The notes beneath the pieces are model-generated. The model made no database searches and was not told where the DNA came from. It saw only the letters and a program-made list of their open reading frames with translations. A stretch of DNA of 64,000 nucleotides, taken from the NCBI GenBank assembly GCA_017434825.1, contig JAFSGC010000009.1, positions 1 through 64,000 of the forward strand, read 5' to 3'. Every line of letters starts with the position of its first letter. Position 1 is the stretch's first letter. A program made the translations under genes and the position numbers. This DNA is from Bacilli bacterium (GTDB taxonomy: Bacteria > Bacillota_I > Bacilli_A > RF39 > UBA660). This document shows positions 4,020 to 46,215 of this stretch, in pieces.

Positions 4020-4096
4020 GGGCGATTAGCTCAGTTGGTTAGAGCACCTGCCTTACAAGCAGGGGGTCATAGGTTCGAGTCCTATATCGCCCACCA
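4020..4096 (+). tRNA. tRNA-Val (TAC)
   Basis: Acceptor GGGCGAT pairs with ATCGCCC and CCA is encoded. The anticodon loop CTTACAA gives anticodon TAC. First of five tRNAs in one transcript. Confidence 0.95.
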
Positions 4097-4104
4097 TTTT
4101 TAAA

Positions 4105-4180
4105 GCCGACATAGCGTAATTGGTAGCGCAACTGACTTGTAATCAGTAGGTTGGGGGTTCGATTCCCTCTGTCGGCACCA
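4105..4180 (+). tRNA. tRNA-Thr (TGT)
   Basis: Acceptor GCCGACA pairs with TGTCGGC and CCA is encoded. The anticodon loop CTTGTAA gives TGT. Confidence 0.95.
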
Positions 4181-4186
4181 TTTTGT

Positions 4187-4270
4187 GGAAGGGTAGCGAA
4201 GTGGTCAAACGCGGCAGACTGTAAATCTGTTCCTTCGGGTTCTATGGTTCAAATCCATATCCTTCCACCA
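4187..4270 (+). tRNA. tRNA-Tyr (GTA)
   Basis: 84 nt with a long variable arm (class II). The anticodon loop CTGTAAA gives GTA. GGAAGGG pairs with TCCTTCC, discriminator A, encoded CCA. Confidence 0.93.
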
Positions 4271-4276
4271 TTTGAT

Positions 4277-4352
4277 TGCCTCGTAGCCAAGTGGTAAGGC
4301 ATCAGACTTTGACTCTGACATTCCGATGGTTCGAATCCATCCGAGGCAGCCA
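4277..4352 (+). tRNA. tRNA-Gln (TTG)
   Basis: Acceptor TGCCTCG pairs with CGAGGCA, discriminator G, encoded CCA. The anticodon loop CTTTGAC gives TTG. Confidence 0.94.
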
Positions 4353-4369
4353 TTCATTTTTTTATTAAT

Positions 4370-4445
4370 GTCCTGTTAGCTCAGTCGGTAGAGCATTTGA
4401 CTTTTAATCAAAGGGTCTGGAGTTCGAATCTCCAACAGGACACCA
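4370..4445 (+). tRNA. tRNA-Lys (TTT)
   Basis: Acceptor GTCCTGT pairs with ACAGGAC and CCA is encoded. The anticodon loop CTTTTAA gives TTT. Last tRNA before the terminator. Confidence 0.95.
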
Positions 4446-40679: not shown

Positions 40680-42443
40680 ATGTTTAAAGAAGAATTAAAA
40701 TTAGTTCCACACTTGCCTGGATCATATCAAATGATTAATAAAGAGGGCATAATTATTTATGTAGGTAAAGCTAAAGATTTGAATAAACGCCTACATAGTT
40801 ATTTTCGTGGAACAGTAACTGGTAAAACGGCTTTAATGGTAAGTGAAGTAGACCATTTTACTTATATTGTGACTAAAACTGAAACTGAGAGTTTTATTTT
40901 AGAGTTAAATCTAATTAAAAAGTATGATCCTAAATATAATATTTTATTAAAGGATGACAAAACATATCCATATATTGAATATATATCAAAACCATTCCCG
41001 TCTCTTAAAGTGTCGAGATATACATCAATAAAGAAGAGAGATAAAAAACAAATCTTTGGACCGTATCCCAATGCTTATGCTGCACGAAGAATTGTTAATT
41101 TAATTAATCGTTTGTATCCTCTAAAAAAATGTGAAAATATGCCTAATAAAGTTTGTTTGTATTATCATATTGGCGAATGTCTAGGATATTGTGCTAAAAA
41201 TATAAATGAAGCAAAAGTTCAAAAAATGGAAGAAGATATTTTATCTTTCTTAAGAGGAAATGATAAAATATTAATTGATAAAATTATGGAAAAGATAGAA
41301 ATTTTATCAAAGAATTTAAATTTTGAAAAAGCATTAGAACTACGTAATGAGCTTAATTATATTAAAGTAGTATTAGATAAACAAAAAGTAGAATTACATG
41401 ACTTTGTAAATCGTGATGTTATTAGTTATTACTATTTAAATGGATATTTATCTATTCAGATATTTTTTATTAGAAATGGTAAGTTACTCGGAGGACATAG
41501 TAATATAATTAATACTGTTGCTTCACTTGAAGAAGAGTTAAATCTATATATTTACTCTTATTATGGAAAACATGAAAGACCAAAAGAAATTTTGATTGAT
41601 AATGTTGTTAATAAAGAAATCCTAAGTAATTTATTAGAAATAAATTTTGTAACACCTCAAAAGGGGAAGAAAAAAGAACTTTTAAATATGTGTTATATGA
41701 ACGCTAAATTAAATCTTGAAAGAGAAATTGAAAGCTTTAAGCAAAATGAAAAAAGAACTATTGACGCTAACAATCGTTTAAAAGAATTATTAAATTTACC
41801 ATTCTTGAACACAATTGAAACGTTTGATAATTCAAATTTATTTGGAAGTTATTCTGTAAGTGGAATGGTAGTTTTCAAAAATGGTAAACCAAGTAAAAGT
41901 GACTATCGTAAATTTAAAATATCGCTTGATAAAAATGATGACTATCACATGATGGAAGAGGTTATATATCGAAGATATTTTCGTTTGCTTACTGAAGAAA
42001 AAAATATGCCAGATTTAATCTTTGTAGACGGCGGTATTAATCAAATTAATGCATGTAAAGAGTCTTTAGCAAAGTTAAATATAAATATTCCGGTATGTGG
42101 TCTAAAAAAGGATGATCATCACCGTACAAAAACTTTAATTAATGGCGACACAATGGAAGAAATAGACTTAACCAATGAGAAAGATGTTTTCAATTATTTG
42201 ACTAGAATTCAAGATGAAGTTCATAGATATACAATCAATTATCATAAACAAATTCGTAGTAAGGGAGCTTTAGGTAGTGTGCTTTCTAATGTCGAAGGAA
42301 TAGGCGATAAACGTAAGAAAGAACTTCTTAAAACGTTTGGAAGTCTTGAAAAAATTAAGAATGCTTCGATTGAGGACTTAAGTAAAATCTTACCATTAAA
42401 TGTGGCAGAGGAATTAAAAAAATATTTAAGTGAAATGTCCTAG
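40680..42443 (+). CDS. uvrC: Excinuclease ABC subunit C
   Basis: 587 aa. N-terminal GIY-YIG nuclease (LPGSYQMINKEGIIIYVGKAKDL), UVR helix motif (LNFEKALELRNEL), RNase H-like domain (FDNSNLFGS, VDGG) and C-terminal helix-hairpin-helix (NVEGIGDKRKKELL). It makes both cuts in nucleotide excision repair. AAGGAAAGAG before ATG 40680. No SOS box is seen upstream. Confidence 0.94.
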   Translation: MFKEELKLVPHLPGSYQMINKEGIIIYVGKAKDLNKRLHSYFRGTVTGKTALMVSEVDHFTYIVTKTETESFILELNLIKKYDPKYNILLKDDKTYPYIEYISKPFPSLKVSRYTSIKKRDKKQIFGPYPNAYAARRIVNLINRLYPLKKCENMPNKVCLYYHIGECLGYCAKNINEAKVQKMEEDILSFLRGNDKILIDKIMEKIEILSKNLNFEKALELRNELNYIKVVLDKQKVELHDFVNRDVISYYYLNGYLSIQIFFIRNGKLLGGHSNIINTVASLEEELNLYIYSYYGKHERPKEILIDNVVNKEILSNLLEINFVTPQKGKKKELLNMCYMNAKLNLEREIESFKQNEKRTIDANNRLKELLNLPFLNTIETFDNSNLFGSYSVSGMVVFKNGKPSKSDYRKFKISLDKNDDYHMMEEVIYRRYFRLLTEEKNMPDLIFVDGGINQINACKESLAKLNINIPVCGLKKDDHHRTKTLINGDTMEEIDLTNEKDVFNYLTRIQDEVHRYTINYHKQIRSKGALGSVLSNVEGIGDKRKKELLKTFGSLEKIKNASIEDLSKILPLNVAEELKKYLSEMS

Positions 42444-42484: not shown

Positions 42485-43639
42485 ATGAGAAAATTAATTA
42501 AATTAAAAAAAGATATATCTATTGTTTTCAATACTCAAATTACCGAATTTCTTAATCCTGATGAAGTATATTTACCAATTAAAAAGAATTATAAATTACT
42601 AGTAAAAAAAGGAGAGGAAATACTAAAAGGTCAAATAATTATTGAAAATAATTTAAATAAAGTAATTAGTCCAATATCAGGAATAATCAAAGATATTGAA
42701 ATTAAAAATGTAGATGGAAATAAAGCAAGTTGTTTAGTTATTCAAAATGATTTTAAAGAAAAAAATAAGAATTATATTCGTAAAAAAGAACAAAAATTTG
42801 ATAAAGAAATTATTGTAAGTAAATTATACGAATATTATTTTAAATATATAGCTAGTGTATTAGAAACAAAAAAAATAAACAATTTAGTTATCAGTGGGAT
42901 TGAAGATGAACCATACATAGCCAATAATGTTTATGTTGTAACTAAATTTAGTAAAGAAATATTAGAAATGGCAGATATTTTATCTACGACTTTTAATATT
43001 GAAAATACACTAATTGCGATGAAAAGTAATGATACTAAGGGAGTGGAAACATATTTAGCTAAAATGGGAACATATCCAAATTTAGCACTTACCTTAGTAG
43101 ATGATAAATACTTATTAGGAAAATCATTTTTCTTGCTTGAGTATTTAAATTTAAAAGATTTAGATACCTTGGTAATAGATGCTAGAACATTATTAGATAT
43201 ATACAATGCATTAAAATATAATAAATTTGTTCATGAAACTTTTATTACTATAAGTGGGCCTTCGGTAAGTAGAAGTCAAGTTATAAAAGTTAAAATTGGA
43301 AGTAAAATAAAAGATATTATTGATAATTCAATTAAAGTTAAAGGCAAAGATAACTTATATATTTTAAATGGATTAATGACTGGACATGAATGTGATATCA
43401 ACGAAACAGTTGTAACAAAAAATACTTTGGGAGTAGTTATAGTTCCTAAGGAAGATATTAAAGAAAGCAAATGTATTGGCTGTGGTTTATGTTTTAAAGT
43501 ATGCCCAGTAAAAGTTAATCCTAAAAAAGCAATGGATAGTCATAAAATATCTAATAATTGTATTGATTGTGGTTTATGCACATATATATGTCCAAGTCAT
43601 ATTAACTTGCGTCGATTTTTAAGAGGTGAATATGAGTAG
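42485..43639 (+). CDS. RnfC-like iron-sulfur protein lacking the NADH-binding loop
   Basis: 384 aa. Residues 1-90 are a barrel-sandwich domain as in RnfC. The middle keeps SGIEDEPY (137-144, family NGAECEPY) but the glycine-rich GGAxFPT loop that should precede it is replaced by a sequence with no glycine (112-132). The C-terminus has two complete CxxCxxCxxxCP motifs (330-341 and 359-370), so two [4Fe-4S] clusters are expected. In true Rnf complexes RnfC oxidises or reduces NAD(H). This one likely does not bind it in the known way. Only an RnfD-like gene follows; RnfG, E, A and B are not in the window. AGAGGT upstream. Confidence 0.8.
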   Translation: MRKLIKLKKDISIVFNTQITEFLNPDEVYLPIKKNYKLLVKKGEEILKGQIIIENNLNKVISPISGIIKDIEIKNVDGNKASCLVIQNDFKEKNKNYIRKKEQKFDKEIIVSKLYEYYFKYIASVLETKKINNLVISGIEDEPYIANNVYVVTKFSKEILEMADILSTTFNIENTLIAMKSNDTKGVETYLAKMGTYPNLALTLVDDKYLLGKSFFLLEYLNLKDLDTLVIDARTLLDIYNALKYNKFVHETFITISGPSVSRSQVIKVKIGSKIKDIIDNSIKVKGKDNLYILNGLMTGHECDINETVVTKNTLGVVIVPKEDIKESKCIGCGLCFKVCPVKVNPKKAMDSHKISNNCIDCGLCTYICPSHINLRRFLRGEYE

Positions 43640-44513
43640 AGTATACTTACATAGCAAAAATAATGTAGATAGTTTAATTAAAGTGATGCTATATCTATTT
43701 ATTCCCTTTGCATTATATGGCTTTTATAAAAATGGAATTAAATTATATGCAAATGACTATATTTCAATATTCTCGATGATTAAATCGTTGTTATTTATTG
43801 GAATATCTGTATTAGTATCATATATATTTAGTAAGTTAAATAAAGAGAAATTTATATCGTTTACATTGTTAAGTAATATAATGATTGCTTTAATTGCAAG
43901 TCCTAGTTTAAGTATTATTTTTTATTTAATTGGAATTATTGTTTTAAATGGAATTCAAAAATTAGTTAAATTTAATATAGTTCCAGTATTTATGGTTATA
44001 ACGATTATTGTTGATTTAATTCTAAAAAATCCAATATTTTTAAATGTGTTTGAATCTAGTGTGGATTACAATTATTCGCTGTTCGATTTTCTTATTGGTA
44101 AAGGCCCCGGAGGCACGGGAAATACATTAATGGCTATGTCGATTGTTTCGCTAATTGTTTTAATTTTAAATATTAATTATAAAAAACAAATTCCAATAAT
44201 GGCTTTTACTAGTTATTATATTTTAGCTATTATTACATCTTTTGTAACTGGAACTTTAGATCAATCGTTATTACTTAATAATAATGTTATATTTAGTTTT
44301 ATATTTCTAAGTAACGTCTCAATATATACTCCATACTCAAAAGGCGCATGCTATATATATGGTCTTGCTTTAGGGATGTTAACTTACTTATCATATTTTA
44401 TTAACATCGATTTAGGAGTTTATCTAGTATTAACCATTTTAAGTTTTGTATATCCACTATTAGATAGATTTATAGTGGGTAAAAATGATAAACATTTAAT
44501 TGAAGTATTATAA
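43632..44513 (+). CDS. RnfD/NqrB-like membrane protein without flavin-attachment motif
   Basis: 293 aa with about eight to nine hydrophobic helices. GKGPGGTGNTLMAM (about residues 157-170) corresponds to the conserved GxxGSxGETS loop of RnfD/NqrB. The SGAT-type motif that carries covalent FMN, expected shortly before it, is not seen. AGAGGTGAAT supports ATG 43632, overlapping the RnfC-like gene by 8 bp, so the two proteins are surely made together. Electron transfer at the membrane or ion movement is possible; direct evidence is lacking. Confidence 0.72.
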   Translation: MSRVYLHSKNNVDSLIKVMLYLFIPFALYGFYKNGIKLYANDYISIFSMIKSLLFIGISVLVSYIFSKLNKEKFISFTLLSNIMIALIASPSLSIIFYLIGIIVLNGIQKLVKFNIVPVFMVITIIVDLILKNPIFLNVFESSVDYNYSLFDFLIGKGPGGTGNTLMAMSIVSLIVLILNINYKKQIPIMAFTSYYILAIITSFVTGTLDQSLLLNNNVIFSFIFLSNVSIYTPYSKGACYIYGLALGMLTYLSYFINIDLGVYLVLTILSFVYPLLDRFIVGKNDKHLIEVL

Positions 44514-44535
44514 TCTTTATGATATAGTTAAATTG

Positions 44536-44579
44536 CTCGTAAAATAGGAATTAGTTCCTATATCTTTACGAGTTTTTTT
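44536..44579 (+). terminator. Long-hairpin terminator
   Basis: CTCGTAAA/TTTACGAG plus inner ATAGGAA/TTCCTAT, followed by seven T. Confidence 0.88.
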
Positions 44580-44609
44580 ATGCAAAAAATGTCACATGAG
44601 AAAGGAAAC

Positions 44610-45737
44610 ATGAAGAAAATATTATTTTTAATAATAACTTTTTTCGTGGGATTTAAAGTACAAGCACTTGAAATAAAAAATGTATATTATCGAAAAGATA
44701 CCGGTAATATTTGTGATGAAGAAAATAAATATCCGATTTACTATATGCAATATAATTTAAGACATATGTATTTTCTAAATTTATCTACTGAATATAATCT
44801 GAATTTCGAAGATTATTATTTAATTTCATTCGAGGATAGTCCATATACTGAAGATATTAAGTATTTTGCAGCTTCAGATATTTATTCTGGAGAAAAAGAT
44901 TATAATCGTTCAATTCATCGGCTTTTATGGGAAAGATTATATCCAGATAAAAAATTTAATATGTGTGCTACGTATGAAGTAGAACGTATAGAAAAAGAGA
45001 CTTACTATGATGGAGTGAAAGAAAAAATATATAGTATTTATGAAGGGCCAACTTTTATAAAAGAAACTTTATATCAAGAAGAAAATACTTTATATGAATA
45101 TGAATATCCATATTTAAAATATTTTAAAATTGAAGATTCTGATGGACTAAATGCTGTAATTCAAAATAATAAGCTTTTAGTTTCAGGAGAAATTGGTAAG
45201 TATAAACTAGTTCTAAAAAGAAAGGTTTCACAAGATGGATTTACCGATATTTTATATACTGATGGAACGAATTATCTACTTTGGTATCCTAAAGTTATTG
45301 ATAAAAACTATGAAGTAGATATAGTAATTGGAAATAAAACATTGACACTAACTACCCAAGATAGTGATAAAAAAATACTTCCTAATATTTGCTTTGATAT
45401 TAATAATGTTAATTATTGTTCTGATGAAAATGGTCTAATTACTTTAGATTTATTAGAAAATGATGTTAGTATTAAATTAACTAACTTTCTAGAAGAATAT
45501 GAAATGTATGAAGAAAAGATAGAGTTATTTCAAAGTAGAGAGCATATAATAACTCTGAATATAAAGAAAAAAGATATTTTTGAAGAAGATAAAGAAGATA
45601 TAGTTATAGTAAATCCTATTCCAGAAAGTAAAGAAGATATCATTATTGAAGTAGAGGATACTTTTTATATTTCTAAGATATTGCTTTATATATTGATATG
45701 TGCGGTGATCTTTCTTGTTAGATTTAAGAAAATGTAG
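44610..45737 (+). CDS. Exported surface protein with C-terminal membrane anchor, sortase-linked
   Basis: 375 aa. Signal peptide (MKKILFLIITFF..., cleavage predicted after QA near residue 20), an extracellular region of about 325 residues rich in Tyr/Glu/Asp, and a C-terminal helix (about 349-368) with basic end: the layout of a sortase substrate. The site before the helix reads VEDTF, lacking the Pro and Gly of LPxTG. A late beta-rich part (about 240-310) resembles a Cna-B-like fold by pattern only. AAAGGA 5 bp before ATG 44610. It overlaps the sortase-like gene. Confidence 0.65.
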   Translation: MKKILFLIITFFVGFKVQALEIKNVYYRKDTGNICDEENKYPIYYMQYNLRHMYFLNLSTEYNLNFEDYYLISFEDSPYTEDIKYFAASDIYSGEKDYNRSIHRLLWERLYPDKKFNMCATYEVERIEKETYYDGVKEKIYSIYEGPTFIKETLYQEENTLYEYEYPYLKYFKIEDSDGLNAVIQNNKLLVSGEIGKYKLVLKRKVSQDGFTDILYTDGTNYLLWYPKVIDKNYEVDIVIGNKTLTLTTQDSDKKILPNICFDINNVNYCSDENGLITLDLLENDVSIKLTNFLEEYEMYEEKIELFQSREHIITLNIKKKDIFEEDKEDIVIVNPIPESKEDIIIEVEDTFYISKILLYILICAVIFLVRFKKM

Positions 45738-46215
45738 TTTGATTATTCTATTTTATTTATCTTTTTATCAGCCGAAAGCGATATATAACAATCATTTAGT
45801 AAAATATAATTATTCTTATAATACATCGTCAAAGTTAAATGATATTGTGTTGACTATTGATAAAATTAATCTAAGAGTGGCTTTTAATGATAATAGTAAA
45901 CTGAAAGATGGACCTGAGATTCATAATGTATCAAAAATAAAAGGTAATCCACTTATAATAATGGGGCATTCAGGATTTGGCTCTAATGTTTATTTTAATG
46001 ATTTAGATTCCCTTGAGAAGAAAGATCTTATTACAATATCTAAAAATAGTGGTGTTATCTCTTATGAAGTAATCGATTTATTATATTTTGATAAAGGAAG
46101 CAAAATTAAATTACCTATGGATAATTCGTATATTTATCTAGTTACTTGCGATAAATATAATTTGAATAAACAGCTTATTATTAGTGCAAAAATGGCAAAA
46201 AATGCGAAAATATAA
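45715..46215 (+). CDS. Sortase-like transpeptidase with altered arginine site
   Basis: About 166 aa. IIMGHSGFG (His85) and YLVTCDKYN (Cys145) match sortase catalytic sites. The Arg expected a few residues after the Cys is replaced by Asn-Lys-Gln (NLNKQLII). An N-terminal hydrophobic stretch anchors it. The start is uncertain: TTG 45715 overlaps the surface-protein gene by 23 bp and another TTG follows. Length is short but within range of small class D/E-type enzymes. The upstream surface protein is the obvious substrate. Confidence 0.75.
   Translation: MLDLRKCSLIILFYLSFYQPKAIYNNHLVKYNYSYNTSSKLNDIVLTIDKINLRVAFNDNSKLKDGPEIHNVSKIKGNPLIIMGHSGFGSNVYFNDLDSLEKKDLITISKNSGVISYEVIDLLYFDKGSKIKLPMDNSYIYLVTCDKYNLNKQLIISAKMAKNAKI

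Follow-up and report, generated by a model that had tools for sequence, protein, structure and literature searches.

Known systems related to the pair

Rnf is usually regarded as an indivisible six-subunit pump. In this complex, electrons pass from RnfG to the FMN and riboflavin of RnfD, then through the two [4Fe-4S] clusters of RnfC to FMN and to NAD+, as set out in passages of three reports (PMC11889175, PMC9588780, PMC12174285). According to parts of the first two, RnfD serves solely as an electron path. Rnf has also been placed in Izemoplasmatales and in a wastewater group, as an excerpt of PMC7301438 indicates.

A single arm is kept in the NQR/RNF-like systems. Passages of Meheust et al. 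2021 (PMC8238504) list 127 'NQR/RNF-like' clusters, for which a unidirectional, outward flow of electrons was proposed, and the RnfD-type subunit of such systems is described without the covalent-FMN threonine in part of Huang et al. (PMC10979944). Excerpts of both papers describe a fusion of the membrane subunit with a PF00175 NAD(P)H domain, its partner being a flavinylated subunit of the NqrC/RnfG type. NqrA and NqrB share the folds of RnfC and RnfD; NqrA also lost the NAD site, along with all redox cofactors, and docks on the quinone-reducing NqrB. In the open-licence literature searched for partial Rnf, RnfCD and RF39/Tenericutes RnfC, no paper was seen to describe RnfCD alone as a conserved pair.

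The pair considered here has both Rnf folds, the two [4Fe-4S] motifs of RnfC, the adjacency of C and D, and common descent with Rnf (RnfABCDGE; PDB 7ZC6, 9ERI, 8AHX). It differs from Rnf in having no RnfA/E/B/G, ApbE, NADH/FMN loop or covalent-FMN linker, and the riboflavin aspartate is lost in the window. The unidirectional NQR/RNF-like system is its closest precedent: a single arm is kept, with a membrane subunit lacking the covalent-FMN threonine. The RnfD-PF00175 fusion in a flavinylation cluster is not found in the pair; its cytosolic partner is a 2[4Fe-4S] RnfC without an NAD site, and no FMN_bind protein or ApbE accompanies it. Unlike NqrA, the RnfC-like protein has retained its two Fe-S motifs.

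The locus and the RnfC-like protein

The window is the whole stretch of 64,000 nucleotides that was analysed. Its features around the pair are:
40680..42443, + strand, uvrC-like gene directly upstream of the pair, given as context with no partner role proposed
42485..43639, + strand, gene of the RnfC-like protein, 384 aa, stop TAG (open reading frame list and sequence)
43472..43593, + strand, two CxxCxxCxxxCP motifs, [4Fe-4S] sites C330/333/336/340 and C359/362/365/369
43632..44513, + strand, gene of the RnfD-like membrane protein, 293 aa from the ATG at 43632
44535..44579, + strand, intrinsic-terminator-like hairpin with a T tract directly 3' of the pair, fold -16.2 kcal/mol, z -5.66

The first-pass annotation had proposed an RnfC-like/RnfD-like pair at 42485-44513, and both open reading frames are found there with matching Pfam families and folds. 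The RnfC-like protein consists of a barrel-sandwich and an Nqo1-like fold followed by a C-terminal 2[4Fe-4S] domain. RnfC_N, Complex1_51K and Fer4 match it above the Pfam cut-offs, and PF00175 is absent from the 25 Pfam families matched at E up to 1. The TIGR01945 rnfC model gives 148.7 bits (E 1.8e-43), which does not reach its own cut-off of 245.95; RnfC models cover the protein over its whole length. The best sequence match among solved chains is 7zc6_C (E 2.1e-24). AlphaFold2 models were built from alignments of the window with 72 (C) and 71 (D) of the 80 named loci. The model of the RnfC-like protein (pLDDT 93.8, pTM 0.91) aligns with solved RnfC over 380-383 residues at Z 35.6-38.4 and rmsd 2.6-2.8, and the next structural group is NqrA with Z about 25. 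The protein has the RnfC fold and carries two [4Fe-4S] motifs.

All eight Fe-S cysteines are present in 121/121 aligned RnfC, and those of the window align with the cysteines of true RnfC. Where the glycine loop for NADH/FMN (GGxGFPT) would lie, the window protein has a gap in the alignment. It had been noticed earlier that both ferredoxin-type clusters are present and the glycine-rich NADH loop is missing, and the alignment agrees on both counts. By column, the GG of the loop and its FP are complete in 18 aligned RnfC from relatives with RnfA/E. Across 80 orphan RnfC of the core clade defined below, the loop columns are mostly gaps (79/80 for the F column). The ExEPY motif is partly retained in the core, its second acid being E in 63/80 and D in 14/80, and GGPMMG of RnfC is changed to NG..xG (N in 77/80).

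The RnfD-like protein

The RnfD-like gene overlaps the RnfC-like gene by 8 nt. Its start is best placed at the ATG at 43632, which has AGGTG just upstream; the listed GTG at 43626 is a mechanical start. PF03116 is the sole Pfam family on the protein (44.7 bits, cut-off 27.7). The best solved-chain sequence match, 8ahx_D (E 1.5e-4), is weaker than that of the RnfC-like protein, but a profile of 72 sequences finds chains of RnfD and NqrB (E 1.8e-22 to 2.4e-16). The AlphaFold2 model (pLDDT 92.3, pTM 0.90) matches RnfD and NqrB with Z 24.5-27.5 and rmsd 3.5-3.8. The protein has the NqrB/RnfD membrane fold, and the ten helices of RnfD are kept whole in the model.

Flavin residues were placed by the numbering given in passages on A. 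woodii (N123, D249, T156; PMC11889175) and C. tetanomorphum (N124, D248, T153, E185; PMC9588780), together with sequence alignments. The five-helix linker with the SGAT-type threonine for covalent FMN is deleted in the window protein, as the reported absence of an SGAT motif had implied, and the threonine column is a gap in 80/80 core RnfD. The FMN-site glutamate is replaced in the core proteins. The riboflavin asparagine is retained in the window and in 66/80 core proteins; the riboflavin aspartate (D248 of C. tetanomorphum) is retained in 28/80 and is a valine in the window. Seven polar residues are near-invariant (Y32, K33, N34, N138, E141, D152 and K184). RnfD evolves faster, the nearest relative being 58% identical for RnfD versus 79% for RnfC.

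The second-best structural group for the model is Amt/Rh (Z about 11-13), and RnfD is related to urea/ammonium transporters according to parts of PMC9588780 and PMC12174285. With the persistence of the polar residues, this speaks for a redox-gated transporter or channel, where the Fe-S protein would gate the passage of ions or small molecules through the RnfD-like fold. Such a function is improbable, since the Amt scores are far under the RnfD score of 27.5 and reflect the fold common to RnfD and Amt, A. woodii RnfD is reported as dry and not ion-conducting (in part of PMC11889175), and no hint of a substrate is seen.

Missing Rnf subunits and redox proteins of the genome

The assembly that contains the window has 1.07 Mb and is 93.4% complete with 5.8% contamination. 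Searches of it gave no matches to RnfA/E (PF02508, the ion-pumping membrane pair), RnfB (PF04060, the Fe-S input subunit), RnfG-type FMN_bind (PF04205) or the flavin transferase ApbE (PF02424), and each search was positive in control genomes. No further rnf gene lies near the pair. The first-pass annotation had called the pair an orphan and suggested a genome-wide check for the other Rnf subunits; none was detected in the assembly, and the orphan status holds beyond the window. Because the NAD+ site, RnfA/E and RnfB are absent, the pair cannot run the Rnf reaction (ferredoxin:NAD+ with ion pumping), which is excluded for it unless unseen partners exist.

The genome encodes PFOR (pyruvate:ferredoxin oxidoreductase), and no [FeFe]-hydrogenase was found in it. 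The Fer4_7 search of the genome gave only PFOR, a DUF362-Fer4 protein and the RnfC of the pair, a small ferredoxin being able to escape this model. The DUF362 protein (L245:1441-2589, contig C2) ends in a 2[4Fe-4S] domain; as one of the few proteins of this genome found with two Fe-S clusters, it is a candidate electron partner. PFOR occurs in 228/241 genomes of the order; being near-universal, it cannot account for which genomes keep the pair. A trade-off with hydrogenase was considered and rejected, as no association appeared in 64 chosen genomes ([FeFe]-hydrogenase in 7/26 with the pair, 8/30 without it and 0/8 with A/E).

The short list of Fer4_7 matches would suit a cytosolic hub docked at the membrane, in which the RnfD-like protein is mainly an anchor and the 2[4Fe-4S] domain of C exchanges electrons among PFOR, the DUF362-ferredoxin protein and flavodoxin, with nothing crossing the membrane. 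The invariance of the Fe-S ligands against the erosion of the RnfD flavin ligands and the faster evolution of RnfD point the same way. The main fact against a mere anchor is the full RnfD fold, as modelled, together with near-invariant N138, E141, D152 and K184, which exceed what an anchor needs; in addition, C and D are never split. This reading is unlikely, though it has to be taken seriously.

Distribution across the order

The sample comprised 241 genomes from 92 genera of one order, which we take to be GTDB order RF39. PF03116 was found in 125 genomes, PF02508 in 19, PF04205 in 25 and PF02424 in 41; 116/241 have no PF03116 match. The 125 are made up of 19 genomes with A/E, 5 with C and a D-FMN_bind fusion without A/E, 6 with a long C-D and neither A/E nor FMN_bind, 94 with the pair only, and one fragment (G210), which was left out of the locus classes. 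The 94, window included, comprise 82 core and 12 intermediate genomes. These classes ('full', 'C-DG', 'long C-D', 'intermediate' with 12 loci, and 'core') were drawn post hoc from the tables and a quick tree.

FMN_bind is present in 18/19 genomes with A/E, 5/5 C-DG, 0/6 long C-D and 1/94 pair-only genomes; for ApbE the figures are 16/19, 5/5, 3/6 and 1/94. RnfB (PF04060) occurs in 18/19 A/E genomes versus 0/39 other genomes tested (pair-only or intermediate, own included), with 0/28 for the pair-only genomes examined, and PF02508 occurs in 0/94 pair-only genomes. Loss of FMN_bind and ApbE tracks the loss of the covalent flavin sites, and RnfB loss tracks A/E loss.

These figures bear on whether the pair belongs to a complete Rnf-like pump, the other subunits of which are too divergent or lie in unassembled parts. 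Genome G010 has a single divergent RnfA/E match (1.9e-17), and the assembly of the window is incomplete by several percent, both of which leave some room for a pump. The absence of PF02508 and PF04060 from all pair-only genomes searched, with PF04205 or PF02424 in only 1/94 and the same searches positive in relatives, makes it very improbable; moreover, the NADH and FMN sites are gone from the remaining subunits too.

Several genomes stand apart. G010 (L017) appears transitional, with RnfC, a shortened RnfD and the one divergent RnfA/E-type gene; RnfB, FMN_bind and ApbE were not found in it. G197 (L132, G197:C135:4560-5180) is the sole pair-only genome with FMN_bind and ApbE: a 512-aa frame with two FMN_bind domains adjoins ApbE and may be contamination. 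In Rnf-bearing relatives (L001-L024, G001/G003/G069/G156/G201 and others), RnfD is fused in frame to one FMN_bind domain; three Rnf-bearing genomes have a tandem double fusion in open frames of 591-599 aa. The RnfB of these relatives is shrunk to a frame of 84-109 aa with the PF04060 domain only. Five loci (L019, L020, L022, L023 and L024, in G088, G205, G005, G151 and G224) combine a looped RnfC, RnfD-FMN_bind and ApbE in the genome without RnfA/E or RnfB; genomes of the G005 type possibly hold an NADH-to-outside half complex.

The core clade includes 82 genomes of 21 genera, and C and D are adjacent on the same strand in 81/81 loci with both genes in view. The genomic contexts differ among loci while the C-D adjacency is constant: uvrC lies within 2.5 kb in 43/81, and a dnaG-type gene lies downstream in 55. 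Among 84,980 named species genomes, a motif scan turned up 393 relatives, 80 of which were kept, with D adjoining C in 80/80. These numbers, like the 94/241 genomes of the order with a pair-only locus, go far beyond chance. Every kept relative is a MAG or an uncultured record, and the record titles often point to the rumen or to the gut of rabbits and chickens; named members are Candidatus Caccenecus and Ca. Ventrenecus, which NCBI classifies under Bacilli incertae sedis and Bacteria incertae sedis. Other families of the class mostly have a normal RnfD, and A/E is present in 66/75 chosen PF03116-positive genomes. PF03116 without PF02508 was seen in the other 9/75 (G245, G250, G272, G283, G291, G299, G319, G382 and G397). 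Proteins of the RnfD type may therefore occur without RnfA/E more often than has been assumed.

Phylogeny, order of losses and selection

Partial or duplicate loci (L031-L038, L004, L105, L125) were left out of the alignments. Thinning at 52% identity left 52 orphans for the trees, to which 14/27 outgroup RnfC were added; for the RnfD tree, proteins were trimmed to the first 340-345 residues. When the RnfC tree is rooted on RnfC of other families, the proteins of the order form a single clade, and the core (46 thinned rows) falls on one side of a branch with support 100/100. The core branch has 99 SH-aLRT in the RnfD tree. From these protein alignments, both gene trees firmly indicate a core that is monophyletic and nested within the order's own Rnf. 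The RnfCD-only operons whose conservation the first-pass annotation had proposed to look for are thus present as a monophyletic group in 21 genera. The two trees conflict on the attachment of the C-DG genomes and L026-L029.

On the RnfC tree, the presence of A/E requires 7 changes or 8, according to the scoring of G010, and at least 5 are forced by well-supported branches. Such counts alone are blind to gain versus loss; apparently A/E was lost several times and C and D stayed. Since A/E, B, C and DG share one operon in relatives, repeated loss explains the pattern more simply. Since the loss recurs on the RnfC tree, C and D were kept repeatedly when A/E went. The NADH loop requires 2 changes on this tree, the regular-expression scoring also calling an A/E genome (F_L017) loopless. 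Intermediates with C only and an intact loop suggest, on the RnfC tree, that A/E/B may have been lost first and the NADH loop last.

For close pairs, dN/dS (Nei-Gojobori) is 0.04-0.27 for C and 0.06-0.25 for D. Between the window and its nearest named relative, L136, it is 0.13 (C) and 0.26 (D), rough values with dS >1. Values up to 0.6 for distant relatives, with dS saturated, were excluded from use. Both genes are under purifying selection. The stepwise loss of subunits and motifs and the absence of the pair from half of the order might be taken for the decay of a functionless remnant. Already disfavoured by the low dN/dS of close relatives, this is hardly credible with the Fe-S cysteines retained at 100%, the pairing and overlap conserved and a strong terminator after the pair. 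The earlier proposal that the pair was repurposed gains support from the disappearance of the other subunits, the conservation of RnfCD-only loci and this selection.

Surroundings of the pair

Judged by their sequences, the neighbouring genes are presumably uvrC-like and dnaG-type. The flanks consist of housekeeping genes, and many loci also have a sortase and a secreted protein that varies (annotation by eye). Neither clustering of flanking genes nor a check by eye of the genes after the pair found a recurrent redox gene adjoining it. A thioredoxin-like gene, often three genes upstream, was rejected as an operon partner, as uvrC and an opposite-strand gene intervene. In a scan for consensus promoters and terminators, sites were no commoner than in shuffles, and the hairpin 3' of the pair was not listed.

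Between the pair and the dnaG-type gene (window 44580-46215), there are a secreted protein, which evolves fast, and a sortase (PF04203, 45715-46215). The same arrangement was noted at L045, L106 and L102, and the secreted protein of one relative has a thioester domain (PF08341). Elsewhere in the window, at 4020-4445, five tRNA genes are clustered (Val, Thr, Tyr, Gln, Lys).

Possible electron path through the pair

The gene trees and the selection on both genes show that the pair is what remains of the Rnf output arm, passed on vertically and kept by selection; its electron path is inferred. Most likely it serves as a conduit of two subunits that takes electrons from cytosolic Fe-S donors into or across the membrane, a view for which the case is about evenly balanced. 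An ancestral complete Rnf apparently lost RnfA, RnfE, RnfB, the RnfG domain and ApbE, C and D staying under selection. The RnfC-like protein would dock on the RnfD-like protein and receive electrons one at a time from a cytosolic Fe-S donor of low potential, itself reduced by PFOR. The electrons could then cross its two [4Fe-4S] clusters to the RnfD-like membrane domain. From there, a flavin bound non-covalently would relay them to an acceptor within the membrane or outside it. The stretch of the Rnf path that survives is that between the membrane flavin and Fe-S, and this remainder would best serve to carry electrons between the membrane and an Fe-S donor in the cytosol.

The main fact against a membrane flavin is the loss of the riboflavin aspartate in most members. 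Erosion of the riboflavin Asp and Asn and loss of the FMN-site glutamate make the membrane flavin uncertain; if it were absent, the two Fe-S clusters would not suffice to bring electrons across the membrane. Other points against the conduit are that no FMN_bind domain or constant non-housekeeping neighbour offers itself as the outside acceptor, that the pair is dispensable within the order, that there is no hydrogenase link, and that RnfD evolves fast. That electrons move from ferredoxin to the far side of the membrane, as suggested earlier, is plausible; the Fe-S module is intact, but the flavin path of D is eroded.

A more specific form of the conduit is a two-gene transmembrane exporter. 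The Rnf output arm would run in reverse, from PFOR/ferredoxin through two [4Fe-4S] clusters and a non-covalent flavin to the outside, with no pump, NAD site or flavinylation machinery. In this uncultured gut lineage, A/E/B would have gone first, then the RnfG domain with covalent FMN and ApbE, and then the NADH loop. Exporter and order of losses together are a tentative proposal, rather less than evenly likely.

Significance

One order of reduced genomes contains a natural series from full Rnf through C plus a D-G fusion without A/E/B and the long C-D to the bare C-D, the last being also without NAD and covalent flavin sites. Since these bacteria gave up the input/pump arm repeatedly and retained the output arm over a long period, the RnfC-RnfD arm would be a working module of its own. 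With two proteins, the pair is a small biochemical target. It also poses the question of where the electrons of ferredoxin go in fermenters that rely on PFOR and have neither hydrogenase nor Rnf.
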